Of a stretch of DNA of 64,000 nt, positions 9,644 through 54,114 are shown piece by piece. The position numbers and the translations under genes are program-made. This DNA comes from Nitrospirota bacterium (GTDB lineage Bacteria; Nitrospirota; Thermodesulfovibrionia; Thermodesulfovibrionales; SM23-35). The stretch is from assembly GCA_040754395.1 (NCBI GenBank), contig JBFMCL010000012.1, forward strand, positions 1 to 64,000, in the 5' to 3' direction. A model generated the notes under the pieces. The model was given only the letters and a program-made list of their open reading frames with translations. It did not search any database and was not told the origin of the DNA. How positions within the stretch are numbered: position 1 is the first letter of the stretch; each line of letters begins with the position of its first letter.

Positions 9644-11977
9644 ATGGATAACAAATATGAACTGAAACAGTTTGAGCCCAAGGATAGCTCAATTTCCACG
9701 TACATAGAGTATCTCCAAAATAAAGACAAAGAGGAGTTTCATCTGAGGGACTATCTCAATATCATCCTTAAGCGGAAATCGATGGTACTCATTTTCCTGG
9801 TTTCCGTCATTGTCATCACCTTGATATTTTCCCTTCTGAAGATTCCTTTTTACCGGGCAACCGCCGTTCTGAAAATCGAGAGTGAGACCCCGAGAGTCCT
9901 TTCCTTTCAGGGAGTTCAGATCGATGCTCTTGGCGCCAACTATTATCAGACCCAGTATGAAATCCTGAAAAGCAGAAGCCTTGCTGGAAGAGTAATAGCT
10001 AACCTGGAACTGCAGAAGAATGAGAATTTCCTTCCCCCCGCAGACATCCCGACCAGACTGAAAAGGTTCATCTTTGACAATACTGTCGGACTGTTTGTAG
10101 ATTTTTACCGTTTTCTTACCGCACCAAAACCCGAAAAAGAGCCACAAGCAAACAGCAACACCTCAGAGGGACTATATGAAATACCAGATTACATGATAGA
10201 TTCTCTTATCTCACGTATTGTGGTAGCTCCCGTAAAAAACTCCCAGCTCGTTAAAGTGAGTTTCATATCACAGAATCCGGAACTTTCTATGGATGTGACA
10301 AATGCAGTTGCACAGACCTATATAACCTTCGATCTGGAGACCAGAATATATGCCAGCAAAGAAGCAAAAAATTTCCTGCAGTCGCAGATTGAAGTAATGA
10401 AACAGAAAGTGGAGGAATCAGAGCAGACACTTAACGCATATGCGGCAAAAAATGGAATAGTATTTAACAGCAACAATAACAACCTCTATTCACAAAAGCT
10501 GTCCGATATTTCTGCTGCCTTGAACAGCGTTACCACGGAGAGAATTCAGAAAGAGGCGTTATACCGCGAGGTAAAGGACTCCGGACCCAACAATCCAATC
10601 ATACTGAACAACCCTATGATACAGGGTTTGTGGAAACAGCATGCATCGCTTGAAGCAGAATATGATAATCTCTTGAAAATATACACTCCCGAGTACCCGA
10701 AGATGAAGAGTCTCAAAAATCAGATGGATTCTGTAGTTAACAGAATCTCTCAGGAAACCACAAAAATCATCCAATCAGCTGAGCTAGATTACAAGAATGC
10801 ACTGAAAAAGGAAGAAAATCTCACAAGGGCGCTGAATTCTCAAAAACAGCAGGTACTCTCCTTTCAGGGCTCTGCTGCGCAATATGAAGTACTCAAGAGG
10901 GATGTTGACGTGAACAAAGGCTTGTACAACAGCCTCCTTCAACGCCTGAATGAAGTAAGCGTCTCTGCAAGCAACAAAGCTACGAATATCCAGCTTCTTG
11001 ATAAGGCCATCTTGCCCAAATATCCGTTCCAGCCGAATATCCCTTTTAATATCATCCTCTCTATCATCTTCGGTCTCGCGGGCGGAGTCGGTCTCGCATT
11101 TCTGGCCGAGTATTTTGACAGCAGTATCAAAGACACAGATGATATTGAAAGAAAAGCCCGCCTTCCAATCCTCGGTGTTATTCCTGACGTCTATGACGTA
11201 AAGCATGTATCTGTTTCCTCACGGCCAAAAATTATTCATCTGGAGTCGAATCCACCAACTTCTCATACTCCTGTAGTTGTCAACAATAAAAAGGTCAGCC
11301 CGGTGTTGGAAGCGTTCCGTTCAATCGGCGCTTTTATCCTCTTGTCTTCTTCATCGAAGCCTCCGAAAACCATGCTTATTACTGGTCCCGATGCGAAAGT
11401 AGGCAAGACTTCGACCTGTATCAATATCGCCAATGCCTTGCTGGAATCACTCGGGAAAGGTATTATTATTGACGCCGACATGCGAAGGCCTATGCTGCAT
11501 AGTGCGTTCGGCCTCGATAACTCAGTCGGACTTTCCTCTTTTCTTGCTGGTCATGTAGATTTTGATTCTGCTGACAACGGTCTCATCAAGCCTTCGAGCA
11601 TGCGCGGGCTCAGCGTTCTGACTTCAGGTCCCGTGCCACCCAATCCGTCCGAACTTATAGGTTCCACACGCATGCAGGACCTCATTTATGCACTCCAGCC
11701 ATTCTTTGAATTTGTCCTTATCGACTCTCCTCCTGTTATGGGGTTGCCTGATGCGATTTATCTCAGCAAGATTGTTGACGGTACCGTGCTGGTGGTAAAA
11801 GCAAATGAAACCCCGATAAAGGTTCTGCAGGAAACCAAAAAGGTATTTACGGGAATCGATGCAAGGATCCTTGGTGTCGTGCTAAACGGAGTAAAGGAAA
11901 GCGACCTTAAATACGGCTCATATAACTACTATCATTCTGCATACTACTCGTCTTATTTTGGCGACAAGGAAAAGTAG
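9644..11977 (+). CDS. Wzc-type polysaccharide co-polymerase / tyrosine autokinase
   Basis: This 777-residue inner-membrane protein has a Wzz domain with one TM helix near residue 40 and a second near residue 470. A long periplasmic coiled-coil region lies between them, and a cytosolic bacterial tyrosine kinase domain follows. The kinase has Walker A GPDAKVGKTS (K588), Walker A' IIIDADMRRP and Walker B FVLIDSPPV. The last 21 residues hold seven tyrosines (757, 760, 762, 763, 767, 768, 771), the usual autophosphorylation cluster. Cycles of phosphorylation control chain length and export through the Wza-like partner encoded 21 bases upstream. Fusion of both modules in one chain is typical of Gram-negative bacteria. 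Confidence 0.94.
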   Translation: MDNKYELKQFEPKDSSISTYIEYLQNKDKEEFHLRDYLNIILKRKSMVLIFLVSVIVITLIFSLLKIPFYRATAVLKIESETPRVLSFQGVQIDALGANYYQTQYEILKSRSLAGRVIANLELQKNENFLPPADIPTRLKRFIFDNTVGLFVDFYRFLTAPKPEKEPQANSNTSEGLYEIPDYMIDSLISRIVVAPVKNSQLVKVSFISQNPELSMDVTNAVAQTYITFDLETRIYASKEAKNFLQSQIEVMKQKVEESEQTLNAYAAKNGIVFNSNNNNLYSQKLSDISAALNSVTTERIQKEALYREVKDSGPNNPIILNNPMIQGLWKQHASLEAEYDNLLKIYTPEYPKMKSLKNQMDSVVNRISQETTKIIQSAELDYKNALKKEENLTRALNSQKQQVLSFQGSAAQYEVLKRDVDVNKGLYNSLLQRLNEVSVSASNKATNIQLLDKAILPKYPFQPNIPFNIILSIIFGLAGGVGLAFLAEYFDSSIKDTDDIERKARLPILGVIPDVYDVKHVSVSSRPKIIHLESNPPTSHTPVVVNNKKVSPVLEAFRSIGAFILLSSSSKPPKTMLITGPDAKVGKTSTCINIANALLESLGKGIIIDADMRRPMLHSAFGLDNSVGLSSFLAGHVDFDSADNGLIKPSSMRGLSVLTSGPVPPNPSELIGSTRMQDLIYALQPFFEFVLIDSPPVMGLPDAIYLSKIVDGTVLVVKANETPIKVLQETKKVFTGIDARILGVVLNGVKESDLKYGSYNYYHSAYYSSYFGDKEK

Positions 11978-23508: not shown

Positions 23509-24471
23509 ATGAGTCTCCCTGCCGGTCAGTCAAAAACTCGCAAAGGAGTATCCGGGAAAAAGATTCTGGTTACCGGAGGAAGTGGTTTTATAGGTTCGCA
23601 TTTATGCAAAATTCTCCTCGAGAGCGGTGCCGAAGTATATAGTGTTACCCGCAAAAAAATCCTCCACAGGAATGATGGTATTCAGTGGCAACAAGGTGAT
23701 CTCACCGAATACGAATTCGTTCATAGTCTTGTGAATACCGTGCGGCCGGATATAATTTATCATCTTGCGAGCCATGTATTCGGCTCACGTGATTTGAGCA
23801 TGGTAATGCCAACATTCAGGAATAACCTGGTGACCACGATAAACCTCCTGACGGCTGCGGCACCGTCTCGATATATCCGTGTTATCCTCACCGGTTCCAT
23901 GGAGGAACCGATGGATTGCGACGAGAGGTTTCCCTCCTCTCCCTATGCCGCTTCAAAATGGGCATGTACCGGCTATGCACGCATGTTTCATGCGCTGTAC
24001 AAAGTACCTGTGGTTATCGCGCGTGTTTTTATGGTGTATGGACCCGGGCAAAGTGACCTCAAGAAGCTCGTTCCCTATGTTACGCTCTCCTGTCTGCGCA
24101 ACGAGGTCCCGCGTCTTAGCAGTGGAACACGCAAGGTCGACTGGATCTATGTGACGGATGTTGTTGAGGGACTTATTGCAATTGCTTCCGCACCTGCAAT
24201 AGAAGGGGAAACTATCGATTTGGGTTCGGGAAGCCTGGCACCAGTTCGGACCGTTGTTGAATACATCAGACATCTCGTCAGCCCGCAGATTGAGCCGCTA
24301 TTCGGAGCCCTGAACGATCGTCCGATGGAACAAATTCGCGCTGCAAATATCCGTGATACTTACGACAAGATAGCATGGAAGCCGGTAGTCTCACTGCAAA
24401 CAGGTTTGGCTCATACGGTTGAATGGTACAGGAGAACCCATATTGATGTCAAAACAAACATTTCGGAGTGA
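23509..24471 (+). CDS. NAD-dependent nucleotide-sugar epimerase/dehydratase (SDR)
   Basis: This 320-residue extended SDR protein has NAD(P)-binding motif VTGGSGFIGSHL (residues 21-32), HLASHVFGS, and the catalytic YAASKW (Tyr/Lys). It follows the CDP-sugar genes, so 4-ketoreduction or epimerisation of the C-methylated CDP-sugar is the likely job. This would be the final step of that pathway. It starts one base after the preceding stop and its own TGA overlaps the GTG of the transporter gene, so these genes are translationally coupled. Substrate cannot be fixed from sequence. Confidence 0.88.
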   Translation: MSLPAGQSKTRKGVSGKKILVTGGSGFIGSHLCKILLESGAEVYSVTRKKILHRNDGIQWQQGDLTEYEFVHSLVNTVRPDIIYHLASHVFGSRDLSMVMPTFRNNLVTTINLLTAAAPSRYIRVILTGSMEEPMDCDERFPSSPYAASKWACTGYARMFHALYKVPVVIARVFMVYGPGQSDLKKLVPYVTLSCLRNEVPRLSSGTRKVDWIYVTDVVEGLIAIASAPAIEGETIDLGSGSLAPVRTVVEYIRHLVSPQIEPLFGALNDRPMEQIRAANIRDTYDKIAWKPVVSLQTGLAHTVEWYRRTHIDVKTNISE

Positions 24472-25328
24472 AATATTATCTGATGAAAAAAAATTATAGT
24501 GTGTCAGAATCACCGGTAATACTCCTCAGGCCTTCACCCGGCTGGGTTGCACTGAAACTGAACGAGCTGTGGGATTACAAAGAACTGCTGTACTTCCTTA
24601 TCTGGCGGGATGTAAAGGTGCGTTATAAACAGACGGTGCTTGGAGCTGGTTGGGCAATCATACAACCTTTTTTTACCATGGTAGTATTCAGCCTTTTCTT
24701 CGGCAAATTGGCGAAAATGCCGTCCGATGGGATCCCTTATCCCATATTCAGCTATGCTGCCCTCGTACCCTGGACTTTCTTCACTAATGGTCTGAACAAA
24801 GCTTCCAACAGTCTCGTCAGCAATGCGAACCTGATCAAGAAAGTCTATTTCCCGAGACTCTGTATCCCTATTGCATCCGTATTATCGGGTGTCTTTGATT
24901 TCCTCCTTTCGTTCACGGTGCTGATTGCGATGATGTTCTACTATAATCTTACGCCCACCATAAATATCGTCTGGTTGCCCTGTCTGCTTCTGCTGGCACT
25001 ATGCGCTTCCCTGAGTGTCTCTCTCTGGCTGTCGGCGATGAATGTCCAGTTCAGGGACGTGCGCTATATCGTACCGTTCATTATCCAGTTCTGGATGTTC
25101 GCAACCCCGATAGTCTACCCCAGCAGTCTTCTGCCTGAGCCCTGGCGGACTGTTTACGGCATTAATCCGATGGTCGGAGTGGTCGAAGGCTTCAGATGGG
25201 CCCTGCTGGGAACAACTACCGCGCCGGGTTCCATAATTATTGTGTCATCGTTGGTAACCTTCCTGCTTCTCGTCAGCGGCGCATTCTATTTTCGCCGTAT
25301 GGAAAAATCTTTTGCGGATGTCGCATGA
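24468..25328 (+). CDS. ABC-2 polysaccharide exporter permease (Wzm-like)
   Basis: This 286-residue inner-membrane protein has about six TM helices. Diagnostic segments are LIWRDVKVRYKQTVLGAGWAIIQP near the N-terminus, the NANLIKKVYFPR loop and QFRDVRYIVPFIIQFWMFATPIVYP. It would move lipid-linked glycan across the inner membrane with the ATPase encoded next, whose ATG overlaps its stop (ATGA). GTG 24468 overlaps the preceding stop; ATG 24483 is an alternative start. Presence of Wzm/Wzt implies at least one glycan of this locus is built completely in the cytosol. Confidence 0.94.
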   Translation: MKYYLMKKNYSVSESPVILLRPSPGWVALKLNELWDYKELLYFLIWRDVKVRYKQTVLGAGWAIIQPFFTMVVFSLFFGKLAKMPSDGIPYPIFSYAALVPWTFFTNGLNKASNSLVSNANLIKKVYFPRLCIPIASVLSGVFDFLLSFTVLIAMMFYYNLTPTINIVWLPCLLLLALCASLSVSLWLSAMNVQFRDVRYIVPFIIQFWMFATPIVYPSSLLPEPWRTVYGINPMVGVVEGFRWALLGTTTAPGSIIIVSSLVTFLLLVSGAFYFRRMEKSFADVA

Positions 25329-26641
25329 ATACCTCAAACAAAGATATCACTATCCGTCTGGACCGGATCAGTAAGCAATTCCGGATCGGGAAGCAACAGT
25401 CCGGGTACAGGACTCTCCGGGATACCATTGCAGACTCCCTGTTAGCACCATTCCGCCGTGCAGTAAGACTCATGCGGGGACAGGCATCAGCAGCCTCTGA
25501 ATTAAATGAGACCATCTGGGCCTTGAAGGATATATCAATGGAAATCAGCAAGGGTGAAGTCGTCGGACTGATCGGACGGAACGGAGCAGGCAAGAGCACC
25601 CTGCTGAAAATCCTTTCCCGCATCACGGAGCCTACTGAGGGATCCGCGGAGATCCGTGGAAGAGTCGGTTCACTCCTTGAGGTGGGAACAGGTTTTCATC
25701 CCGAACTGACGGGGCGGGAGAATGTCTATCTGAACGGGACAATACTCGGTATGAAGCGGACTGAAATCGCAGACAAGTTTGATGAAATAGTCGGTTTTGC
25801 GGAAATCGAAAAATTCATTGACACCCCGGTGAAGCATTATTCGAGCGGGATGTACCTGCGGCTTGCCTTTGCGGTAGCAGCCCACCTCGAAACAGAAATC
25901 GTCTTTGTGGACGAAGTCCTTGCAGTGGGTGATGCACGTTTCCAGAAAAGGTGCATCAGCAAGATGGAAGATATTGGCAGGGAGGGAAGGACAGTCCTCT
26001 TCGTCTCTCACAATATGCCCGCCGTCACCCGTCTCTGCAAGCGCACTATACTCCTTGAAGAAGGCCGTATAATCCAGGATGGCCCTACAAAGCAGGTCGT
26101 TTCCGGATACCTGCGGTCGCAATACGGATTGACCGGCGTCAGGGAGTGGAACGATCCTTCGACTACGCCTGGAAACGATATCGTCCGGATGCATGCGATC
26201 CGTGTTGTTGCAGAGGACGGTGTTGGGACCGATGCGATCGATATCAGGAAGAAAATCGGTCTTGAAATTGAATTCGAAGTTCTCAGGGAAGGATATCCCC
26301 TCATCCCGAACTTCGGGGTTTTAAACGAAGACGGGCAGATCGTCTTCGTCACAATAGATCAGGACACTGAATGGAGAAATATTCCGCGTCCCAAAGGGAA
26401 GTTCATAAGCACCGTCTGGATCCCCGGGAATCTGATGGCCGAGGGCACGTTTTTTGTCGGAGGGGGCATCGCAACCGAACAGCCGTTTACGGTCCATTGC
26501 GACCAGCCGTATGCGGTTGCGTTCCAGGTAATCGACACCCTTGAGGGAAATTCTGCCCGGGGCGACTATACAAGAAACCTTCCCGGAATCATCAGACCCC
26601 TCCTTCCGTGGAGCACGAAATTCAGTCCCAATGGGAAATAG
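25325..26641 (+). CDS. ABC exporter ATPase with glycan-binding C-terminus (Wzt-like)
   Basis: This 438-residue protein has an ATPase domain with Walker A GRNGAGKST, the signature YSSGMYLRLAFA and Walker B EIVFVDEVLAVGD. A C-terminal extension from about residue 260 is beta-rich and matches the Wzt_C type, which in E. coli O8/O9a recognises the capped chain end before export. That predicts a terminal modification of the glycan; the methyltransferase and acyltransferases of the locus are candidates. The start is ATG 25325, overlapping the permease stop. A longer frame from 25196 runs inside the permease gene and is rejected. Confidence 0.94.
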   Translation: MNTSNKDITIRLDRISKQFRIGKQQSGYRTLRDTIADSLLAPFRRAVRLMRGQASAASELNETIWALKDISMEISKGEVVGLIGRNGAGKSTLLKILSRITEPTEGSAEIRGRVGSLLEVGTGFHPELTGRENVYLNGTILGMKRTEIADKFDEIVGFAEIEKFIDTPVKHYSSGMYLRLAFAVAAHLETEIVFVDEVLAVGDARFQKRCISKMEDIGREGRTVLFVSHNMPAVTRLCKRTILLEEGRIIQDGPTKQVVSGYLRSQYGLTGVREWNDPSTTPGNDIVRMHAIRVVAEDGVGTDAIDIRKKIGLEIEFEVLREGYPLIPNFGVLNEDGQIVFVTIDQDTEWRNIPRPKGKFISTVWIPGNLMAEGTFFVGGGIATEQPFTVHCDQPYAVAFQVIDTLEGNSARGDYTRNLPGIIRPLLPWSTKFSPNGK

Positions 26642-30638: not shown

Positions 30639-31886
30639 ATGAAAAAAATTATTAAGAAGGCATTCAGAAGTCTTGGCATAGAGGTGTCCCGATACAGACC
30701 GCATCTGCCGAGCAGATTTGACCCCCTCAAGTTTAGTGATGCATGCGTAAGCCTTAAGACTGGAAAAGAGTTCAGAGGGAATATGCTTCTTTCCTTTATT
30801 ATCGAACCCTTCATGACCGAAGAAGGTGGTCATGTTTCGCAGGCCCATACCAATCCCGTTGATTCGGTACAGATAGCCCAGATATTCCTGGATCTTGGAT
30901 ATGACGTGGACGTCATCCATTACAGGAATACCACATTTATTCCCCAAAAAAACTATGCGTTCTTCGTCGGTGCGAGGACAAACTTCCAGAGAATCGCCAC
31001 ATTACTGAACAGGGGTTGTATCAAGATTGTGCATCTGGACACCGCACACTGGGTATTCAATAATTATGCTACATTCCGAAGGTCCCTTGAGGTACAGCAA
31101 CGCAAGGGGATATCCATACCGGATAGCAACAGAATTATCGAACAGAATTTGGCAATTGAATACGCAGATTATGGCACGATCGTCGGCAATCACTTTACTG
31201 CCGGCACTTATGCATATGCAAAAAAACCGATATTTGTGATTCCGCATTCAACCTGCGCGGTGTATCCGTGGCCGGAAGAAAAGAGTTTTGAACTCTGCAA
31301 AAAAAATTATGTCTGGTTTGGAAGTCACGGATTTGTTCACAAGGGACTCGATCTTGCACTGGATGCTTTTGCCGGAATGCCGGACTTCCATTTATATGTC
31401 TGCGGCCCGCTGGACAGTGAGCCAGCTTTCACCTCTGCATACCAGAAAGAACTCTTCCAGATGCCCAATATTCATTCGATCGGATGGGTTGATATACGCA
31501 GCCCTCAGTTCATCGATATCATGAACCGATGTGTTGGAACCGTCTACCCTTCCTGTGCGGAATGCGGGGCGGGCAACGTACTGACATGCATGCAGACAGG
31601 GATAATCCCTGTTCTCAGCATTGAATCCGGATCTGATATCGATCTGGCATTCGGGAGAACCCTTCAGACTTCCTCTGTTGAGGAAATACAGCAGACTGTG
31701 CGTCATATTTCCGACCTTTCTCCCGATGAACTGCAGCGTATGGCCCGTGATGCCTGGACATTCGCAAGGACCAATCATACTGTTACACGGTTTGCTGAAG
31801 AGTATAAAAAAGTGATTTCGCATATTTCCCAGGCAACCACTTCGGGAAGAATTCCCGAATACGGTGATTTTGCGCGTCACAGATAA
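30639..31886 (+). CDS. GT-B fold glycosyltransferase (GT4-like)
   Basis: This 415-residue protein appears to have two Rossmann-like halves. The C-terminal half has WFGSHGFVHKGLDLALDAF followed by FHLYVCGPL, then the donor-binding acidic region SCAECGAGNVLTCMQTGIIPV. In GT4 enzymes the corresponding E-x7-E contacts the nucleotide sugar; here the residues are CAECGAGN. The N-terminal half begins with a short basic segment, so membrane association is likely. It starts five bases after the aminotransferase stop. Linkage and donor cannot be deduced. Confidence 0.82.
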   Translation: MKKIIKKAFRSLGIEVSRYRPHLPSRFDPLKFSDACVSLKTGKEFRGNMLLSFIIEPFMTEEGGHVSQAHTNPVDSVQIAQIFLDLGYDVDVIHYRNTTFIPQKNYAFFVGARTNFQRIATLLNRGCIKIVHLDTAHWVFNNYATFRRSLEVQQRKGISIPDSNRIIEQNLAIEYADYGTIVGNHFTAGTYAYAKKPIFVIPHSTCAVYPWPEEKSFELCKKNYVWFGSHGFVHKGLDLALDAFAGMPDFHLYVCGPLDSEPAFTSAYQKELFQMPNIHSIGWVDIRSPQFIDIMNRCVGTVYPSCAECGAGNVLTCMQTGIIPVLSIESGSDIDLAFGRTLQTSSVEEIQQTVRHISDLSPDELQRMARDAWTFARTNHTVTRFAEEYKKVISHISQATTSGRIPEYGDFARHR

Positions 31887-32004: not shown

Positions 32005-35000
32005 ATGAGGAAGAGAAGAAAAACACTCTATTATCTGGTGTATTGCATGCTGCTGATGAATATTATCGCTGCAGGCACTGCATCAGCCGTGGCAGTATGT
32101 CCTTCTGAGATGCTTCACTACTGGAAGCTCGATGAAGGCAGTGCACCATATGACGACTTTTACGGCACCAACAATGCGACCTGTACTGTCTGTCCTTCTC
32201 CCGTAGCAGGGAGAGTCAACGGCGCCCAGCAGTTCACCGCGACAACCAATGTGTCTGCAGTTGATGACGGCACCTTTGACTGGGACAACTCCCAGAGCTT
32301 TTCCGTGGAAGTATGGATGAAGACTGCCAGCTGCTCGGGAACCGACGTGCTGGTCGGCAGGGATGACAGCGCCACCCCGGTTCACTGGTGGGTGGGATGC
32401 ACCAACGGTATCGCAGAGGCATATCTCATCGATTCCAACAACAACGGCTACGGCGTGGGGGGGACTACCCTCCTTACCGACAACAGCTGGCATCATCTCG
32501 TCTTTGTCAGGAATGCGGCTGCAAACACCATATCTCTTTATGTAGACGGGCAGCTCGAGGATTCGGTCAGCACCGCCTATACCGGAACCTTTAATTCCAC
32601 CGCCGCTCTCAATTTCGGCTGGCTGAATCTTTCCACAGGATACCATTTCTCAGGCGCTCTCGACGAAATTGCGCTCTACAACAGAGCCCTCCCCCTTGCA
32701 GAAATCAGTCAGCATTACAAAGATGGTTCCATCGGGTTACGATGGGGCTATTGTGCCTGCTCCTCTCCGGTCAGAATAATGCAACTTGGCGACTCGATCA
32801 CCTTTGGAGAACCACCGTATGACCCCATACTGGTCAAAGGGTTCAGGCAACCACTGTACCAGTCATTGACAGATGCCGGATATTCATTCGATTTTGTCGG
32901 AAGCATGCAAGATGGAGACATCAGCCTTTTTGACATCGACCACGAGGGACACGGCGGCTGGGCTGCAAAAAGAGAAAGGCCGCCTTACGGAGGCGGCATC
33001 GCACCCTATGTTCAGGGCATCCTCACTACAAATCCTGCTGATGTCGTGCTGCTTCATATCGGGACGAATGATGTGTCTGACGGGCTCGAAAATGCGAATG
33101 ATGTTGCCGAGATACTCGACAATATCGATATTTTGAGCAATGATATAGTGGTAGTCCTTTCAAAAATCATCCGCCGCACAGACGACAAGGCCGTTAAAAC
33201 AACACTCTTTAACAATGCTGTGGGAGCAATGGCGACGACCAGGATTGCCAGCGGCGACAGAATTGTCGTTGTGGATCACGAGAATGCGCTGAATTATTCC
33301 ACTGACATGGCAAGTGTTCTTCATCCCAATCAGACCGGATACAACAAGATGGCCAATGTCTGGTTTAATGCCCTCAGGGCATTTCTCCCTGTCTGTGCAG
33401 AACCTGCTATGCCGCCGTGTCCTTCTGAGATGCTTCACTACTGGAAGCTCGATGAAGGCAGTGCACCATATGACGACTTTTACGGCACCAACAATGCGAC
33501 CTGTACTGTCTGTCCTTCTCCCGTAGCAGGGAGAGTCAACGGCGCCCAGCAGTTCACCGCGACAACCAATGTGTCTGCAGTTGATGACGGCACCTTTGAC
33601 TGGGACAACTCCCAGAGCTTTTCCGTGGAAGTATGGATGAAGACTGCCAGCTGCTCGGGAACCGACGTGCTGGTCGGCAGGGATGACAGCGCCACCCCGG
33701 TTCACTGGTGGGTGGGATGCACCAACGGTATCGCAGAGGCATATCTCATCGATTCCAACAACAACGGCTACGGCGTGGGGGGGACTACCCTCCTTACCGA
33801 CAACAGCTGGCATCATCTCGTCTTTGTCAGGAATGCGGCTGCAAACACCATATCTCTTTATGTAGACGGGCAGCTCGAGGATTCGGTCAGCACCGCCTAT
33901 ACCGGAACCTTTAATTCCACCGCCGCTCTCAATTTCGGCTGGCTGAATCTTTCCACAGGATACCATTTCTCAGGCGCTCTCGACGAAATTGCGCTCTACA
34001 ACAGAGCCCTCCCCCTTGCAGAAATCAGTCAGCATTACAGTAACGGACTGAACGGCTTTGGCTATTGCACGCCAACCTTCACCGTCACCGGTTCCGCACC
34101 CGGCGGACATGGCACTATCTCCTGCGTGCCTTCTACTGTCAACTCGGGCGCTTCCTCCACCTGCACCATGACCCCCGATGCAAACTATCACCTCTCGGCG
34201 CTCACTGACAACGGGACTAATGTCCTCGGTTCGGTCGTCAATAACCAGTACACCATCTTCAACATCACCGCAAACCATACCGTCGTTGCCACCTTCGCCA
34301 TTAACACCTACACCCTTACCGTAGCAAAATCAGGTAAAGGGAACGGTACGGTAACCAGCATTCCTTCAGGAATCAACTGCGGTGGTGATTGTTCTGAAGC
34401 ATTTAATACCGGGACTTCCGTTACCCTTATTGCCACAGCATCCTCTGATTCAAACTTCACCGGATGGAACGGCGGGGGCTGTACGGGCACGGGAAACTGC
34501 ACGGTGATCATGAATAGTGCAGTTACTGTTACCGCCTCGTTTGATGGCAAGTATTTCATATCGGGAACTGTCCGGACGCCGAGCGGCTCAACTCCGGGAA
34601 GTCCTATCCGCGGCGTAACAATCACCCTTGGGGGAGATGCCGGCGGCACTGCCATAACCGATAAAAACGGGTATTATCAGTTCGCGGGATTGCCGAACGG
34701 TAATTACACACTCACCCCCAGTATGCTCAATTATTCATTTACCCCCGCGACCAGAGCTGTCGCATTATCCGAGAGGAATATGTACTCGCAGAATTTCACG
34801 GGAACATATTCTGTGAGTGGCACCCATTCACTGTCCGGCAAAATTCTCACGGCCCAGGGCAGTCCATTATCCGGGGTAACCGTAGCGCTGAACGGAAGCG
34901 CAACAGGCACCACACAGACAGACATCCTCGGCAATTACACATTTTCAGGACTGTCGAACGGGAACTATACCGTCACGCCCGGGATGGCCGGCTATACTTT

Positions 35001-35352
35001 TGCGCCTGAATTCAGAACAGTCACCATCAGCGGGTTCAGTATGTCGGGAATGAACTTTACCGGAACCTTGACAGGCGGAGGGATATACTCAATATCAGGC
35101 ACTGTGCGTTTGCCAAGCGGCGCGTTTCCGGGCAAACCAGTACCGGGCGTCGTGGTATCATTAACAGGAGATTCTACCGGGACCACCACCACGGATAATT
35201 ACGGAAATTATACCTTCAGGTCGCTGCCGAATGGTAATTTCACTATCGCTCCGTCAAAAACAGGGTATACATTTACCCCGACTGAAAGAAATGTCACGAT
35301 AGACAAAAGAAACCTGTATATGCAGGACTTTACTGCGGTGCTGGAACAATAA
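32005..35352 (+). CDS. Secreted LamG-SGNH-LamG protein with beta-repeat C-terminus
   Basis: This 1115-residue exported protein has a signal peptide (residues 1-28). It continues with a LamG-like domain (32-238), an SGNH hydrolase domain (about 257-455), a second LamG-like domain (472-678), two Cys-containing beta-repeat units and three carboxypeptidase-regulatory-like repeats (TDNYGNYTF types). SGNH blocks are visible: GDSITFG with S264, HGG, GTND (353-356) and LHPN with H440. The Asp expected three residues before that His is Ser437; the nearest Asp is D434. The two LamG copies are identical at DNA level. SGNH enzymes often remove acetyl groups from glycans, and LamG domains bind them, so it may edit the exported polysaccharide. 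A strong AGGAGGGG precedes the ATG. Confidence 0.9.
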   Translation: MRKRRKTLYYLVYCMLLMNIIAAGTASAVAVCPSEMLHYWKLDEGSAPYDDFYGTNNATCTVCPSPVAGRVNGAQQFTATTNVSAVDDGTFDWDNSQSFSVEVWMKTASCSGTDVLVGRDDSATPVHWWVGCTNGIAEAYLIDSNNNGYGVGGTTLLTDNSWHHLVFVRNAAANTISLYVDGQLEDSVSTAYTGTFNSTAALNFGWLNLSTGYHFSGALDEIALYNRALPLAEISQHYKDGSIGLRWGYCACSSPVRIMQLGDSITFGEPPYDPILVKGFRQPLYQSLTDAGYSFDFVGSMQDGDISLFDIDHEGHGGWAAKRERPPYGGGIAPYVQGILTTNPADVVLLHIGTNDVSDGLENANDVAEILDNIDILSNDIVVVLSKIIRRTDDKAVKTTLFNNAVGAMATTRIASGDRIVVVDHENALNYSTDMASVLHPNQTGYNKMANVWFNALRAFLPVCAEPAMPPCPSEMLHYWKLDEGSAPYDDFYGTNNATCTVCPSPVAGRVNGAQQFTATTNVSAVDDGTFDWDNSQSFSVEVWMKTASCSGTDVLVGRDDSATPVHWWVGCTNGIAEAYLIDSNNNGYGVGGTTLLTDNSWHHLVFVRNAAANTISLYVDGQLEDSVSTAYTGTFNSTAALNFGWLNLSTGYHFSGALDEIALYNRALPLAEISQHYSNGLNGFGYCTPTFTVTGSAPGGHGTISCVPSTVNSGASSTCTMTPDANYHLSALTDNGTNVLGSVVNNQYTIFNITANHTVVATFAINTYTLTVAKSGKGNGTVTSIPSGINCGGDCSEAFNTGTSVTLIATASSDSNFTGWNGGGCTGTGNCTVIMNSAVTVTASFDGKYFISGTVRTPSGSTPGSPIRGVTITLGGDAGGTAITDKNGYYQFAGLPNGNYTLTPSMLNYSFTPATRAVALSERNMYSQNFTGTYSVSGTHSLSGKILTAQGSPLSGVTVALNGSATGTTQTDILGNYTFSGLSNGNYTVTPGMAGYTFAPEFRTVTISGFSMSGMNFTGTLTGGGIYSISGTVRLPSGAFPGKPVPGVVVSLTGDSTGTTTTDNYGNYTFRSLPNGNFTIAPSKTGYTFTPTERNVTIDKRNLYMQDFTAVLEQ
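32098..32719 (+). repeat. Perfect 622-bp direct repeat, copy 1
   Basis: It is identical base for base to 33418-34039 and begins on the same codon position. It encodes the first LamG-like domain. The copies are offset by 1320 bases (440 codons), so recombination between them would delete one LamG copy plus the SGNH domain without shifting the frame. Confidence 0.97.
33418..34039 (+). repeat. Perfect 622-bp direct repeat, copy 2
   Basis: This is the second identical copy, encoding the second LamG-like domain. Sequence identity stops abruptly on both sides. This indicates recent duplication or ongoing gene conversion, unless it is an assembly error. Confidence 0.97.
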
Positions 35353-35581
35353 CATTTCACATGGGAAAAACAGGTCCGCCGGCTAAACTGTTCCCGCGGT
35401 CATGAATTCATTCGGTCCCGGGATCTGCCGCACACACTACCGAACCCGTCTCACAACCGGTTTTGCGTATTTAGTCTCATTGCCGCAAGCCCAAGCGCCT
35501 GCGCGACGGACAATCCGGAATGACATGCCAGCGGGCGTATCATTGTAACGAGACAGGTTCTTGTAAAGAAAGGAGATGACG

Positions 35582-37018
35582 ATGAAGCAGAGACCATTAC
35601 AGAGGATATCTATTCTCCTTTGTCTCATTTGTCTCGTATTGGGAGCCTGCAGTGGCAGCGGGGGTTCTTCGGGCAGTGCAGGTTCCCACACTACCGTTAC
35701 TGTCTCGGGACCTCTGATGGTTGATTCGTTAAATCCACGGTATTTTGCAGACGGCAACGGAAAAACAGTGCTTCTTTCCGGATTTGAGTTCTGGGATGTG
35801 CTTCTTGCCGACGGCCAGCCTGCGCGCGAGGCCATATCATGGGAAACATTCCTCAAAGCTTCCCGGAAGCATAGCACCAATTTCATCAGATTATGGGTAT
35901 GGAATGAATTGACCAGATTTCGTCATGCGCCAGATGCTCCATGGTACACAAGTAAGGAAATCTGGATGAGAACGGGCCCTGGACTTGCCCTGGACGAAAA
36001 ACCGAAATTCGATCTGACAAAATTCAATCAGGCCTATTTCGACGAACTTCATGCCCGGGTCAGTCAGGCTGCGGAGAAAGGGTTTTATGTATCGGTCATG
36101 CTGTTCGAGGGATGGTCATTGCGATACATGGAGGCTCCATGGAACTGGAACGGTCATCCGTTCAATCCCCGGAACAATATCCAGAACCTGAACGGGGACG
36201 TGGACGGCGACAGTCTTGGAACGGAGGTACACACTCTCCAGGTACCTGAAATCACCCGTATCCAGGAACAGTATGTGAAAAAAGTCATTGATACGCTGAA
36301 TGATCTCGACAATGTACTGTTCGAAATATGCAACGAAGACCATGAAGGTTCAACTGCCTGGCAATACCATATGATTGCGTATATCAGGGATTATGAAAAG
36401 AACCACAAACCGAAACAGCATCCCGTATGGATGTCCACCCAGTATGTCCGCTCCGACCCCGGCGTGCAGTTTAACACTGTTTTGCTCGACAGTCCGGCAG
36501 ATTGCATTTCACCAAATCCCTATGGCGGCTATAAGGACGATCCGCCCGCATCTGACGGGCGAAAAATCATCATCTCTGACTCCGACCATCTCTGCGGATG
36601 CATTCTTGACCATACCTGGGTTTGGAAAAGCTTTACGAGGGGTCTGAACATTGTGAACTATATGGAACTGCCTGAATTACTGGACAACAATACAAAGCAT
36701 GTCGCAGCCCGGAATGCTATGGGACATGTCCTTCAGTATGCCAACAGGATAGACCTGTCATCGATGATTCCGAGCACCGACCTGTCATCGACAAAATACT
36801 GTCTGGCAAATCCGGGGAAAGAATATATTGTCTACCAGCCTGAGGCAGGAAAAAATTTTACCCTGCTACTCCCGGCAGGCAGATATGAATTCGAATGGTT
36901 CAACCCGTCTACCGGTCGCACGGGAGCGAAGGGAGTTATCGAAACCGGGGGAGCAAGGGAATCTTTCAGTTCCCCATTTGGGGGTGATGCGGTTCTCTAC
37001 ATTTATATGAGCATATGA
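35582..37018 (+). CDS. Lipoprotein glycoside hydrolase (GH-A-type TIM barrel)
   Basis: This 478-residue protein has a lipoprotein signal ending LGAC. A Gly/Ser linker follows, then a (beta/alpha)8-type domain. Early strands show [20 protein letters not shown] and [10 protein letters not shown]. The likely acid/base is E252 in LFEICNEDH, the Asn-Glu pair of GH-A clan enzymes. The C-terminal 60 residues ([15 protein letters not shown]...) resemble the small beta domain found after DUF4038-type hydrolases. It would cut or trim a polysaccharide in the periplasm or at the outer membrane. ATG 35582 is preferred because AAAGGAG (35569-35575) abuts the earlier ATG at 35576. Its stop overlaps the next gene's start. 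Confidence 0.85.
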
Positions 37019-37743
37019 TACTGAATAACGCACGCTCCAGGTTTGTCTCTGCATGGACACGCTTCTGGATGAAACGTTCCGGGCTTGGCAGGACTGGCAG
37101 GATGAGCACACGCCTTGCAGCTCTCTTTGTCCCTGCCTATAAGTCACGTTGCCCCCTCGCCCGCATCTCAGTTAAAGGGTATATTTCGCCTTCAGCGGTT
37201 ATTAACCATGACAGGCTGGCGTTTGGCAGGCATGTCTTCATTGGTGACAGAGTTGTGATATACAAGGCTCACGAAGGAGGAGGGGTTGAAATCGGTATGG
37301 GCTCACATGTGCACAATGACACAATAATAGAGACAGGATCAGGCGGAAGCCTCGCAATAGGCGAAAACACCCATATCCAGCCACGCTGCCAGTTCTCAGC
37401 ATATAAATCCCCGATATTCATCGGAAACGGGGTCCAGATTGCACCAAACTGCGCGTTCTATCCTTACAATCACCGTATGTCTCCATGTGAACCGATACAC
37501 AGGCAACCCCTGACATCGAAAGGGGGTATTCATATTGGTGATGATGCATGGATAGGAGTCGGGGTAATTGTGCTTGACGGAGTACGCATTGGCAGAGGCG
37601 CGGTTATTGGGGCCGGTGCAGTAGTGACCCGGGACGTCCCTGACGAAGCGATTGCTGCCGGTGTGCCGGCGAAGGTGATCGGGATGAGAAGCAGCATCCC
37701 GTCTGAAGACGGAGGGAAAACCGGCAAAGAGGTGCTCCGGTGA
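37015..37743 (+). CDS. Left-handed beta-helix O-acetyltransferase-like protein
   Basis: This 242-residue protein has a basic, helical N-terminal 45 residues, then hexapeptide repeats ([20 protein letters not shown] onward). The terminal block [20 protein letters not shown]...[11 protein letters not shown] is a classic galactoside/maltose acetyltransferase-like end. It probably acetylates a sugar with acetyl-CoA. Its ATG overlaps the glycoside hydrolase stop, and its own stop overlaps the GTG of the next glycosyltransferase, so it is part of a coupled series. It ends with a charged tail. Confidence 0.88.
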
Positions 37744-38690
37744 TCGGTGGTAGTCAGCCTCTGGTGAGCGTTCTTACCCCTGTGTACAATGGTGAAAAAT
37801 ACCTAATTGAGTGTATCGAGAGCGTGCTTGCCCAGACATATCAAAACTGGGAATATATCATCGTGAACAACTGCAGTACAGACCGTACGCCGGAGATCAT
37901 TCACCAATATGCTGAAAAAGACCCGAGGATCATACTCCATACCAATGATACGCTGCATAAAGTAATCCAGAATCATAATATTGCATTTAGTCTTATTTCA
38001 GACAAAAGCAAATACTGTAAAGTTCTCCAGTCAGACGACTGGCTGTTCCCGGAATGCATTCAGAGGATGACTGAGGTGGCAGAGCAATATGCATCTGTAG
38101 GCATAGTGGGATCCTACCGGCTCGACGAGGACATCGTGAACTGTGACGGACTCAAATACCCGAGCACCGTCGTTCCCGGACGAGAGATATGCCGGGCAAC
38201 CCTTCTCGGCGGTCCCTATGTGTTTGGCTCTCCGACGACAGTCATGTTCCGGTCCGATCTGATCCGTCAGAAAAAACCTTTCTACAATGAAAACAACCTG
38301 CATGCCGATACCGAGGCATGCTATGACATCCTGCGAGACAGTGACTTCGGCTATGTCCATCAGGTTCTCTCATTCACCCGGAGGCATAATGAGACGGAAT
38401 CATCATATGCAAAGAGGATGAACACATACCTTTCCGGGAGTCTGATCATTCTTAAGAAATACGGGCCTGTATATTTAAGTGAACAGGAATATAACAGACG
38501 TGTGGAAAAACATCTGAATGAATATTATCTGTTCCTTGCGAGCAGCTTTCTGAAAAAAAGAGACAAATCCTTCTGGGAATACCACAAAAAAAGCCTGCAG
38601 GATCTCGGGGTTGGGCTCAGTTACACGAGACTGGCAGGAAAATCATTTCTGATCCTGTATAACCGGATACTGAGACAATTGCAAATATGA
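37740..38690 (+). CDS. GT2-family glycosyltransferase
   Basis: This 316-residue GT-A enzyme starts [22 protein letters not shown], with the NDP-binding NNCSTDRT and the metal-binding LQSDDW (DxD equivalent). The C-terminal part carries no TM helix and is basic, consistent with peripheral attachment to the inner membrane. GTG 37740 overlaps the acetyltransferase stop. It transfers one sugar to the lipid-linked repeat; donor and linkage are unknown. Confidence 0.92.
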
Positions 38691-44525: not shown

Positions 44526-47312
44526 ATGCAAAAGAGAAAAAAACATATCACTTTTTTCCTTATTAACCTGCTTCTGACATGTTTTCTTTTATCTTCAGGC
44601 TATGCATTTGCGGACGTCATTATCGATAACGGACAGGCAGGCACATCCTATACCGGAACATGGGGAATTTCCGGGGGTACCCTGCCTTATGGCACAAACA
44701 GCCTCTGGTCGAGGGACGGGGCCACGTATACCTGGCAATTCTCTTCACAACCTGCAGGCACATATGAAGTGTACATGTGGTGGTCTGGCTACGCAACGAG
44801 AGCAACAAGCATAGCGGTAGACATCTACCACCGTGACGGGCAAAGCACCGTTACGGTAAATCAGCAGTTGAACGCAGGCCAGTGGAACAGCCTCGGGCAA
44901 TACTATTTTGACACAAGTGGAAGAGTAACAATTATTGCAGCCAATGGCTCCACAGTAAGCACCTGTGCTGATGCGGTACGATTTGCCCCGGTCTCAACGA
45001 ACTCTCCTCCCACCGCGTACATTGACTCAATAACTCCCAATCCGGCAAACCCCGGTCAGACCGTTTCATTCTCAGGGCATGGCACCGACTCCGACGGGAC
45101 GATCGCCGCATATCAGTGGAGTTCAAACATCAACGGTCTCCTCAGCACAGAGAGCGCATTCTCTTCCTCAACCCTCTCTGCAGGAACACATACGATCTCT
45201 TTCAGGGTTCAGGACAATGAGGGGGCATGGTCTGCACCAGTTGCCCAGACACTGCAGGTAGGCGCTCCTCCAGTCGAATACATCATAGACAATGGTGCTG
45301 CAGGCACCTCATTTACTGGCACATGGGCTATTTCAGGAGCTTCAAATCCTTACGCAATAGATTCGGTCTGGAGCCGCGACGGCACCACCTATACCTGGAC
45401 ATTCACTCCTGCGGTTTCAGGAAACTACGACCTCTCCATGTGGTGGACAGTCTGGCCTTCGCGGAGCACAGCCGTGCCTGTTGACATCACCTTCTACGGC
45501 GGAACTTCACGAGTGGTTATCAACCAGCAGCTCAACGGCGGCAAATGGAACCTGCTCGGCAACTTCTCCTTCCTCGCCGGCCAGAGCTACACCGTAAGAA
45601 TAACCTCGCAGCCCGGGCCGTCAAGTACCTGCGCAGATGCGGTCAAATTCTCGCGGGTATCTGACCTGAATGCCCCTCCTGTGGCCACCATCGATTCTGT
45701 CACTCCCAACCCTGCCCTTCCCGGGGAAACCGTAACCTTCACCGGGTCAGGCTCGGATACCGACGGTACGATCACCGGCTACAGCTGGCGCTCCAGCAGA
45801 GACGGCGTAATCGGCACCGCTGCGTCTTTCAGCACCTCGGCCCTCTCAGAGGGAATACACACCATATATTTCAAGGTTCAGGACAACAACGGCGTATGGT
45901 CGCCGGAAATAAGCCATACTCTGAATATCGGCAATCAGGTCTCAAATACCGAACATATATATTTCTGTCTAACATTCTTTGGAGCAAATGACAAAGCCTT
46001 GTTGATTGCAACCTTGCAGGATGTTGGCGCGGTTCAGCAGGGTAATGTCTGGACTTATACAAATAGTGCACTGGGGAAAGATTATGTAATTCATATTGTG
46101 GAAGATATAGAAACCATGAAGCAGGCATTATATACGGAAAATGCGCATGTGATTGTAAAAGGACATTCCAACTACGGACTGGGTGGGGTTTTTATCCCGG
46201 ATTACGCATATGAACATCAAGTGCTCAACAATATTCGGTATATCGATGATGACCTGATTTTTAATTACTCCTCTCCATGGATTTCCGTAAATGTTGCAAG
46301 CTGCATCATAAGTCACGCATTCCCAAACTGGTGGCCAATTCTGCAGGATGGCACAAACGGCATCATGCCATATGATTTTGGGGATCCAAGGGGGAATCCT
46401 CCTTACAATTACTATTTAACCTATCAAATACCCGGCGATCCGAATATTTACAAAGTCGAGACCGTACGAAACAGCGCACGCGAGCGGTTTCCGGATTCAG
46501 GAGTGCCTGCATGGTATTCACCTGACGGCTCAAGCCCGAATCCGTCAAATCCTTCACACCGTCAGTACTATATCACGAACCCTGATAATTCCTTCTTATC
46601 CGCTGGCAGATGGCTTTGGACTAATAATTCTTATGCCGGCAGTCTGACCGGATTCTATGGCTTTCATTATTGCCGCATTAACGCAGGTTCGGGCAGCAGC
46701 CAGGCTTCATGGCGCTTTTCCATACCTGTCAGCGGCAGTTACAATGTATCTGCATGGTGGCCGTCATCTCCGCTTAACACATCTCAAGCCAAGTATACTG
46801 TGAACCATGCCACCGGCAGCACGTTAGTGATGCAAAATCAGCAGGTTAATGGTAGCGTTTGGAACAACCTCGGAACCTTTTCTTTCAATACCGGTGAGTA
46901 TTCAGTAGTACTAACTGACCAATCCGGCTCCGGGCAAATTGTTGCTGATGCAATCCGGGTAACAAATTCTGCAAATCCAAGCATTGATATCACGGTAGAT
47001 AACTCTTTTTGCCCTAAATCACATTATTATAAAAAGTCGATCGTCTTCAGGAGACAGCTTGAAATAGAACCGGAAAAACTGAAATATAAGCGGATGCTGT
47101 ATGATGCATGCACGACAGGAAGCTACTACCTTGAGGCGTTTCAGAGAGGAACCATGTTCTTCACGGTTATTGGCTCGAGGACATATGGGAGCTATAAATA
47201 TCTCAAGGCGTATCTGGAGGGAAAAAGTGATCAGGAGATATGGACAATACTGCAGGCATACGACCCGGTATACGATTATTATTACTTCGATAAATCGCCG
47301 TCAGAACAGTAA
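44526..47312 (+). CDS. Secreted golvesin/PKD protein with split caspase-like domain
   Basis: This 928-residue protein has a signal peptide (1-29). Two golvesin-type beta domains (VIIDNGQAGTSYTG and YIIDNGAAGTSFTG) each precede a PKD-like domain (TPNPANPGQTVSFSGHG, TPNPALPGETVTFTGSG). From about residue 475 a new alpha/beta domain begins: AHVIVKGHSNYGLGG carries H547, with the NVASCIISH strand further on. A third golvesin-like domain interrupts it. The sequence then resumes with LYDACTTGSYYL (C862) and IGSRTYGSYKYLKAYLEG. The His-then-Cys arrangement resembles caspase-like (clan CD) proteases, whose motifs are HG and DxCxSG. Protease activity is only inferred. The golvesin domains are probable carbohydrate or surface binding modules. 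GGGGGA precedes the ATG. Confidence 0.85.
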   Translation: MQKRKKHITFFLINLLLTCFLLSSGYAFADVIIDNGQAGTSYTGTWGISGGTLPYGTNSLWSRDGATYTWQFSSQPAGTYEVYMWWSGYATRATSIAVDIYHRDGQSTVTVNQQLNAGQWNSLGQYYFDTSGRVTIIAANGSTVSTCADAVRFAPVSTNSPPTAYIDSITPNPANPGQTVSFSGHGTDSDGTIAAYQWSSNINGLLSTESAFSSSTLSAGTHTISFRVQDNEGAWSAPVAQTLQVGAPPVEYIIDNGAAGTSFTGTWAISGASNPYAIDSVWSRDGTTYTWTFTPAVSGNYDLSMWWTVWPSRSTAVPVDITFYGGTSRVVINQQLNGGKWNLLGNFSFLAGQSYTVRITSQPGPSSTCADAVKFSRVSDLNAPPVATIDSVTPNPALPGETVTFTGSGSDTDGTITGYSWRSSRDGVIGTAASFSTSALSEGIHTIYFKVQDNNGVWSPEISHTLNIGNQVSNTEHIYFCLTFFGANDKALLIATLQDVGAVQQGNVWTYTNSALGKDYVIHIVEDIETMKQALYTENAHVIVKGHSNYGLGGVFIPDYAYEHQVLNNIRYIDDDLIFNYSSPWISVNVASCIISHAFPNWWPILQDGTNGIMPYDFGDPRGNPPYNYYLTYQIPGDPNIYKVETVRNSARERFPDSGVPAWYSPDGSSPNPSNPSHRQYYITNPDNSFLSAGRWLWTNNSYAGSLTGFYGFHYCRINAGSGSSQASWRFSIPVSGSYNVSAWWPSSPLNTSQAKYTVNHATGSTLVMQNQQVNGSVWNNLGTFSFNTGEYSVVLTDQSGSGQIVADAIRVTNSANPSIDITVDNSFCPKSHYYKKSIVFRRQLEIEPEKLKYKRMLYDACTTGSYYLEAFQRGTMFFTVIGSRTYGSYKYLKAYLEGKSDQEIWTILQAYDPVYDYYYFDKSPSEQ

Positions 47313-52251: not shown

Positions 52252-54114
52252 TTGCATACTTCATTCCGATCATCTTCGACCACTCCTTATAACTGGGAAA
52301 TACATCCGGCAAGTCATCTGACCGGGTGGATGGCAATAAAAGGTAACACGCCCCCTGCACAGTTGAAAGAAATTCTGCAGGTAGGGCTCAATTCCTTCAT
52401 GGGTGATTATGGCACAAAAAAGACCATAATAGTAAAGGATCATTTTGTATTCGGCTTTATTGTTCCTGCATCCCCGTTTCCTTTGACAACATGGTCATAT
52501 TTTGAAGATGAGGAAGGCTGTTGCTTCATTGATGGTGTCTTTTATGACAAGTATCTTTACCATCAACCGGTTGATGGTGAAGATGTTCTTCTTGCAAAAC
52601 ACATAATAGATAATTTCAGACGCATGAATGTCAAAGCGATCGAGGAACTTAACGGTTCTTTCAGAGGTTTTATATATGATTTCAGGAATACGCACCTGAC
52701 AACATTCATAGACCGTCTTGGAACGAAGATTCTCTACTGGTCGCGGGAAGGAAACAACCTCATTGTGACCACAAATCTTGCGAGTTTTTCAAAACTGAAA
52801 AATCTTTCACTCGATGAAATCGCAGCATTTCAGTTCCTTACGGTCGGCTTTCCCATCGGCAACAGGACACTGCTGAAAGACATACAGATTCATACCCCGG
52901 GTATGACCAACAGTTTCAGGGATTCCTCCGAGGAAACCCGTCGATATTGGAATATTCCGCATCGTATGCAGGGCATCTCTCTGAATGCCTGCGTTGAAAT
53001 GATTATGGAATCAGTCGAGGATCATGTTGAACGCGTCTACAATAAATCTCAGGTCAAACTCGGTCTTGCGCTATCAGGAGGTCATGATTCGAGGGTAATA
53101 CTTAATGCTCTTGTATCCAGAAAAGTGCCATTCGTTCCTGTGCTTTGGAGAGATAATAACTTTAATGACAGAATTGCGCTAAACTTGTGTTCATTACTCA
53201 ATAAGGAACCAATTATTGCTGACGACGTTGACGTCAATGCACTTGATGACATTCAAAAAAATATCTTTTTGTATTCAGACGGGCATTATCTGAATTCTTT
53301 CGGTTTCATACGTTTGGGAAAACTTTGTTATGATCGTCACATACCGAGTTTGCTTATCGGATTCAGCGGCGATAAAATAAGCGGTTCTCTAACATATCCT
53401 GACCCGGCATACCTGAAGAATATCAGAGAGCTTGCACAATACACCCTCAACAATCAGATGGAGCTCTTTTCTTTTGACCAGGCCCAATCCCTCTTATTGA
53501 CTTCTGATACTAGACTGACGGATGTTACGTTTTCAGAGTGGGAAGACAGCTTTGCCAAAATCACTCCCCGTGAACATTTGTCTGACATTTCCATATTGCA
53601 GGGATTTGCGAATCGGAATCACAAGCGAGTCCGGTTAGCTATGCTACCGGCCGAACAGTATGTGCAAGATCTTTTTCCCTATCTGGACAGTAAGGTGCTG
53701 AATTCCTATTTCAGCCTGCCCTTTGATTTCCTGAAACATCAGAAGGCGCACTGTTTTGCTGGATTCCGGAGAGTCAGGGATTTCAGAAAATATCCGGCAA
53801 GTAATTACCCTATTTCTCTTGCACAGGAGGCTCTTGTACCCAAATTTCTCTATTTTCTGAGACTCCTGAAGTTAAAGGGACAAAGATTATCAACATCGAT
53901 AAGACCACAAAAATACAGGGGAGTCTGGAATCAATTACATGAAGAAATATTGGATGAAATAGTCCAGTCGCCCCTGTTTGATTCCGGATTGCTACGAAGA
54001 ATGTATACTGAAAAAAGTATATATCCGGCGGAACTGTATAAGCTCCATACGCTTGTCAGATTTTACGATTTCTATGTCTGTGGAAATCAAAGCAAGATGT
54101 GGCAAGCATTATAG
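52252..54114 (+). CDS. Asparagine-synthetase-like protein with degenerate glutaminase domain
   Basis: This 620-residue AsnB homologue has an N-terminal Ntn-type domain (to about 200, with [10 protein letters not shown]...). It lacks the N-terminal catalytic cysteine of real glutamine amidotransferases, since the frame opens MHTSFRSS. The C-terminal ATP-pyrophosphatase domain has the PP-loop [13 protein letters not shown] near residue 277. It would activate a carboxylate as an acyl-adenylate and join it to an amine other than glutamine-derived ammonia, as beta-lactam synthetase does. A TTG codon at 52252 is the apparent start. Its neighbours suggest a glycan or its substituent as substrate, which is inference. 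Confidence 0.8.

Follow-up and report, generated by a model that had tools for sequence, protein, structure and literature searches.

Within a 64,000-nucleotide stretch of DNA from an uncultured Nitrospirota bacterium (the window), one gene carries the same 622 bases on either side of its SGNH hydrolase domain. How did two domains of a single gene come to be identical, base for base? The gene and its parts are as follows.

32005 to 35352, plus strand: gene for a secreted protein of 1115 aa (ORF, translation and Pfam), whose order of parts is signal peptide, LamG1, SGNH, LamG2, B-repeats and three CarboxypepD_reg domains
32098 to 32719, plus strand: repeat copy 1, which is LamG1, residues 32-238 (identity to copy 2; Laminin_G_3; second-position type in the N-segment tree)
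32719 to 32760, plus strand: probable residual first-position LamG tail, KDGSIGLRWGYCAC (gapless alignment to the tail NDGVVGLGWGYCGC of G157)
32749 to 33402, plus strand: SGNH/GDSL hydrolase domain, CE3-like, residues about 249-466 (local HMM; Pfam GDSL; 2VPT and 5B5S)
32788 to 32808, plus strand: SGNH Ser block, GDSITFG
33055 to 33072, plus strand: SGNH Asn block, HIGTND
33313 to 33330, plus strand: SGNH His block (Block V), SVLHPN
33418 to 34039, plus strand: repeat copy 2, which is LamG2, residues 472-678 (identity to copy 1; Laminin_G_3; second-position type in the N-segment tree)
34081 to 34554, plus strand: InlB-type divergent B-repeats (Flg_new_2), limits approximate (Pfam PF18998)
34555 to 35349, plus strand: three CarboxypepD_reg (prealbumin-like) domains, limits approximate (Pfam PF13620)

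The first-pass annotation had described a perfect, in-frame duplication of 622 bp flanking the SGNH domain, and our comparison bears this out. The two copies match at 622/622 bases with an offset of 1320 bp, both lie inside the one ORF, and the tract cannot be extended, as the next base at either end already differs between them. No other direct exact repeat of at least 40 bp was found on the plus strand of the window. The tract starts with the complete codon of the first conserved LamG residue (Cys32 in LamG1, Cys472 in LamG2) and stops where the LamG domain ends ('..SQHY'). The offset equals 440 codons, and the computed product of losing one unit is an open frame of 675 aa; recombination between the copies would therefore delete the SGNH domain and one LamG in frame, as had been proposed. 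The in-frame offset is in itself trivial: a domain that occurs twice in an ORF is necessarily in frame with itself. The repeat pairs of relatives have offsets of 1539 and 1575, likewise multiples of three.

To place the layout in its phylogenetic context, we scanned the genome contigs of relatives. Only two showed LamG-SGNH-LamG: Kmv42 (G014), of the same family, and WY3.bin121 (G153), of the same order. Kmv42 has been assigned to family SM23-35 of the Thermodesulfovibrionales (PMC7565565). The layout itself is thus not new: two further genera have it, and both LamGs are kept in all three. The Kmv42 locus is also syntenic with the window by tblastn, with Wzm (76% amino acid identity) and Wzt (63%) upstream and a DUF6298 gene (43%) downstream. 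Because the arrangement is shared by Kmv42 and WY3.bin121, and because the neighbors in Kmv42 are conserved, the two-LamG layout most likely predates the perfect identity. In the genes of both relatives SGNH is separated from LamG2 by a He_PIG domain. The window gene lacks it, and its history therefore includes at least one other rearrangement. SGNH genes with a single LamG or none also exist (G035, G045 and L058). The multi-LamG genes of G060 are only 25-30% identical to the window LamGs, and no homogenisation to the window LamG was seen among them.

We then compared silent sites within and between genes. Third-position identity in the LamG core is 100% within the window gene, 98% within the Kmv42 gene and 58% within the WY3.bin121 gene, compared with 31-45% between genera. 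Paralogous copies are thus more alike at silent sites than orthologous ones. Protein constraint does not account for this identity, since the same core is only 55-61% identical at the nucleotide level across genera.

The Kmv42 pair preserves the edges of such a tract. Its two LamGs share an exact run of 348 nt in a core that is 99% identical overall and 98% identical at third positions, whereas the N segment falls to 48% and 32%, respectively, and the short C-terminal segment is 76% identical. The longest run of identical codons was reached in 0 of 20,000 shuffles. A 348-bp core with so abrupt a drop in its flanks is the pattern expected of gene conversion. As would be expected under conversion, the segment trees disagree on the place of Kmv42 LamG1, which clusters with the LamGs of G157, G169 and G165 in the N-segment tree (0.999) and with its own LamG2 in the core tree (0.989). 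These are FastTree local supports on short segments, and the C-segment tree, built from 23 columns, is poorly resolved. Within the same Kmv42 gene, CarboxypepD_reg domains 1 and 3 (L036:9129-9365 and 9654-9890) are 84% identical in DNA and have perhaps been homogenised too.

A third LamG, 85% identical, lies on contig C11 of the window's own genome. It belongs to a 779-aa protein without SGNH, encoded at a different locus and consisting of a signal peptide, LamG and B-repeats. Window LamG2 and the C11 LamG are 94% identical in the core (90% at third positions), with the differences interspersed, compared with 72% (56%) in the N segment and 58% (27%) in the C segment; here too, the shuffle test gave 0 of 20,000. 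Sharp-edged tracts with diverged homologous flanks are therefore present both in the Kmv42 run and in the C11 mosaic. Upstream of the C11 paralogue, at a distance of about 4.4 kb, lies a DDE transposase gene (PF13701; L035:2954-4342). The WY3.bin121 pair is less alike (core 80%, 58% at third positions) and had no significant identical-codon run in the shuffle test; its homogenisation would be an older event.

Since the tract of the window pair takes up the entire domain, a short tail is all that informs about its edge. Both window LamGs are of the second-position type in the N-segment tree, grouping with C11, Kmv42 LamG2 and G45 with moderate support. Directly after the tract, however, LamG1 continues as KDGSIGLRWGYCAC. 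A gapless alignment pairs this stretch with NDGVVGLGWGYCGC, the tail of the LamG that stands first in G157. The two tails share a 2-residue insertion that other LamGs lack. Because a first-position tail survives outside the tract, the simplest reading is that LamG1 was already present and was probably overwritten by LamG2.

Collectively, these results point to concerted evolution, in which recombination has repeatedly homogenised an old pair of LamG modules in an extracellular esterase encoded within a surface-polysaccharide cluster, a reading to which we assign a probability of roughly 80%. The LamG modules around SGNH would be an old pair, and a recent intragenic homologous recombination would have copied LamG2 over LamG1 across the whole domain. 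The exchange could have been non-reciprocal gene conversion, presumably of the RecA type, or an equivalent unequal exchange, the two being indistinguishable here. Similar but separate events would have affected Kmv42 (the 348-bp core), WY3.bin121 (earlier) and the window gene together with the LamG of its C11 paralogue. Under concerted evolution both modules would keep the same sugar specificity, and selection may have favored equal modules.

In bacteria, patterns of this kind are conventionally explained by homologous recombination within the gene in which transfer is non-reciprocal. Between bacterial tuf genes, conversion proceeds in uninterrupted blocks; the processivity fitted for strains deficient in mismatch repair is 0.998 (PMC5485169), which by our own arithmetic corresponds to about 500 nt. 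Concerted evolution of duplicated prokaryotic genes has been documented for 26 genes (PMC6053082). As in tuf, the rRNA operons and those genes, the copies within a genome are closer to each other than to orthologues, silent sites included, and, as in tuf, the blocks are sharp-edged with conversion tracts of hundreds of bases. In those systems whole duplicated genes are homogenised; here the units are smaller, namely two domains that lie 1.3 kb from each other in a single gene and a further domain in a second gene. The homogeneous intragenic repeats of Legionella pneumophila rtxA have been attributed to the same recombination processes (PMC2257941); in contrast to rtxA, the repeats here are two LamG modules set apart on either side of an enzyme domain, and they belong to an environmental Nitrospirota bacterium, with no link to a host or to virulence. 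The locus offers a clear example of gene conversion acting on domains within one bacterial gene, and traces of the process are seen between loci as well as in two or more genera. It indicates that two binding modules paired on a secreted enzyme can evolve as a unit. Homogenised pairs of this kind can also distort domain trees, and short-read assemblies can break at them or smooth over their differences.

The first-pass annotation had offered a very recent duplication as one option. In that case SGNH would at first have had one LamG as its neighbor, and a 622-bp copy of it would then have been inserted across the domain. That suggestion is right in that no difference has yet accumulated between the copies, and single-LamG and LamG-less SGNH genes do exist. 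Duplication at the level of the domain would likewise be compatible with a tract whose ends match those of the domain exactly. A fresh insertion, however, would not have supplied the first-position tail that follows LamG1 outside the tract, and LamGs on both sides of SGNH in two other genera, one of them syntenic, argue against it further. We consider a fresh duplication unlikely.

An assembly artefact, in which differing copies were smoothed by the assembler or one copy was written twice, is improbable as well, although parts of the data invite it. The window genome is a draft of 75 contigs, 622 bp exceeds short-read length, and De Bruijn assemblers are able to merge repeats that differ very little. 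Two contigs of relatives, G035:C120 (L039) and G036:C32 (L040), start precisely where the conserved LamG core does (DSFSIE..) and may be repeat-induced breaks; partner contig ends for the broken LamGs of G035 and G036 were sought and not found. The Kmv42 assembly was made with metaSPAdes from 2×150 Illumina reads, so no single read spans its 348-bp run. Exact identity in the window genome or in Kmv42 could therefore be assembler-smoothed. Smoothing, however, acts only on copies that are already near-identical, so the similarity needs a biological cause in any case. The two-copy layout also recurs in independently assembled genomes, and the C11 and Kmv42 mosaics retain sharply diverged flanks, beside which near-identity is not easily produced by smoothing. 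Assembly error, which the first-pass annotation had named as the plain alternative, thus may explain the last step to 100% but is unlikely to explain the high similarity as such.

Two further readings involve variation in the protein itself. The LamGs might act as cassettes, with exchange between the SGNH-less C11 gene and the esterase LamGs and with in-frame loss or regain of the esterase giving surface variants; we regard this as quite unlikely. The first-pass annotation had also raised a switchable gene. In that case recombination between the repeats, reversible or not, would yield an esterase-less form of 675 aa and hence two forms of the surface protein in a population. We regard this as very unlikely. 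In its favor, the deletion product is open and the C11 paralogue has just such an SGNH-less layout, albeit at another locus. Against it, the in-frame offset was to be expected anyway, neither an invertase or recombinase site nor a short-form allele was found, a deletion could be reversed only with a further donor, and all three genera retain both LamGs. Searches at the level of relatives, order, class and phylum yielded no genome of the same genus. Esterase-less forms in population data, if real, would raise the importance of the locus. The identity of the two copies thus appears to be the work of ordinary gene conversion, and not of a new duplication or of an established on/off switch.

We next considered what the homogenised modules flank. 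By sequence, the SGNH domain best matches the CE3 structure 2VPT (E = 1.9e-20) and also matches PDB 5B5S. By fold, 2VPT is again the top match, using a predicted model of modest confidence (mean pLDDT 62.6). Like the CE3 esterases CtCes3-1 (2VPT) and the Talaromyces acetyl esterase (5B5S), the domain keeps its Ser and His blocks, with Ser (GDSI), Asn (GTND) and His all present. Unlike those enzymes, it is flanked by LamG domains, is encoded in a polysaccharide-export cluster and lacks the Asp of the DxxH motif: Block V reads SVLHPN, with no Asp three or two residues before the His, where most relatives have one. Because this Asp is missing, we call the domain CE3-like rather than a CE3 member. 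Several SGNH enzymes work without the Block V Asp, and SGNH enzymes with a Ser-His dyad are known (PMC9487903); judged from its sequence the window domain may likewise use a dyad or have reduced activity.

LamG is a concanavalin-like binding fold. The LamGs are predicted to bind sugar and the SGNH domain to deacetylate, and the substrate may be the organism's own surface polysaccharide, which the enzyme would deacetylate or trim. Fold matches to the binding domains of clostridial neurotoxins and a Pfam Toxin_R_bind_N match raised a toxin function, which we rejected since the same general concanavalin-like fold occurs in the binding domains of sialidases and arabinanases. A literature search for LamG, SGNH and exopolysaccharide together found no paper.

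The gene lies within a cluster encoding an ABC polysaccharide exporter, glycosyltransferases and a hexapeptide transferase, with the following neighbors.

24468 to 26641, plus strand: ABC polysaccharide exporter, Wzm-like at 24468-25328 and Wzt-like at 25196-26641 (NCBIfam; tblastn synteny)
35576 to 37018, plus strand: DUF6298/apiosidase-like glycosidase gene, directly downstream (Pfam, tblastn; in the same place in Kmv42)
37015 to 38690, plus strand: hexapeptide transferase and GT2 glycosyltransferase (Pfam; tblastn to L038, 56% and 52%)

A single protein of G045 (L059:1077-3932, on G045:C14) combines an SGNH domain of the same subfamily with DUF6298 and CBM6. The fusion of SGNH and DUF6298 in that protein, together with their adjacent genes in the window, suggests that the two proteins may act together. 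Two long ORFs of the window gave no Pfam match at the thresholds used, one directly upstream of the LamG-SGNH-LamG gene (30639-31886) and one at 52252-54114. Golvesin/PKD repeat proteins occur in both clusters. The Kmv42 protein (L058:3540-8819) also holds an SGNH domain and has golvesin repeats that are up to 81-85% identical, and none were detected in the window protein (44526-47312).
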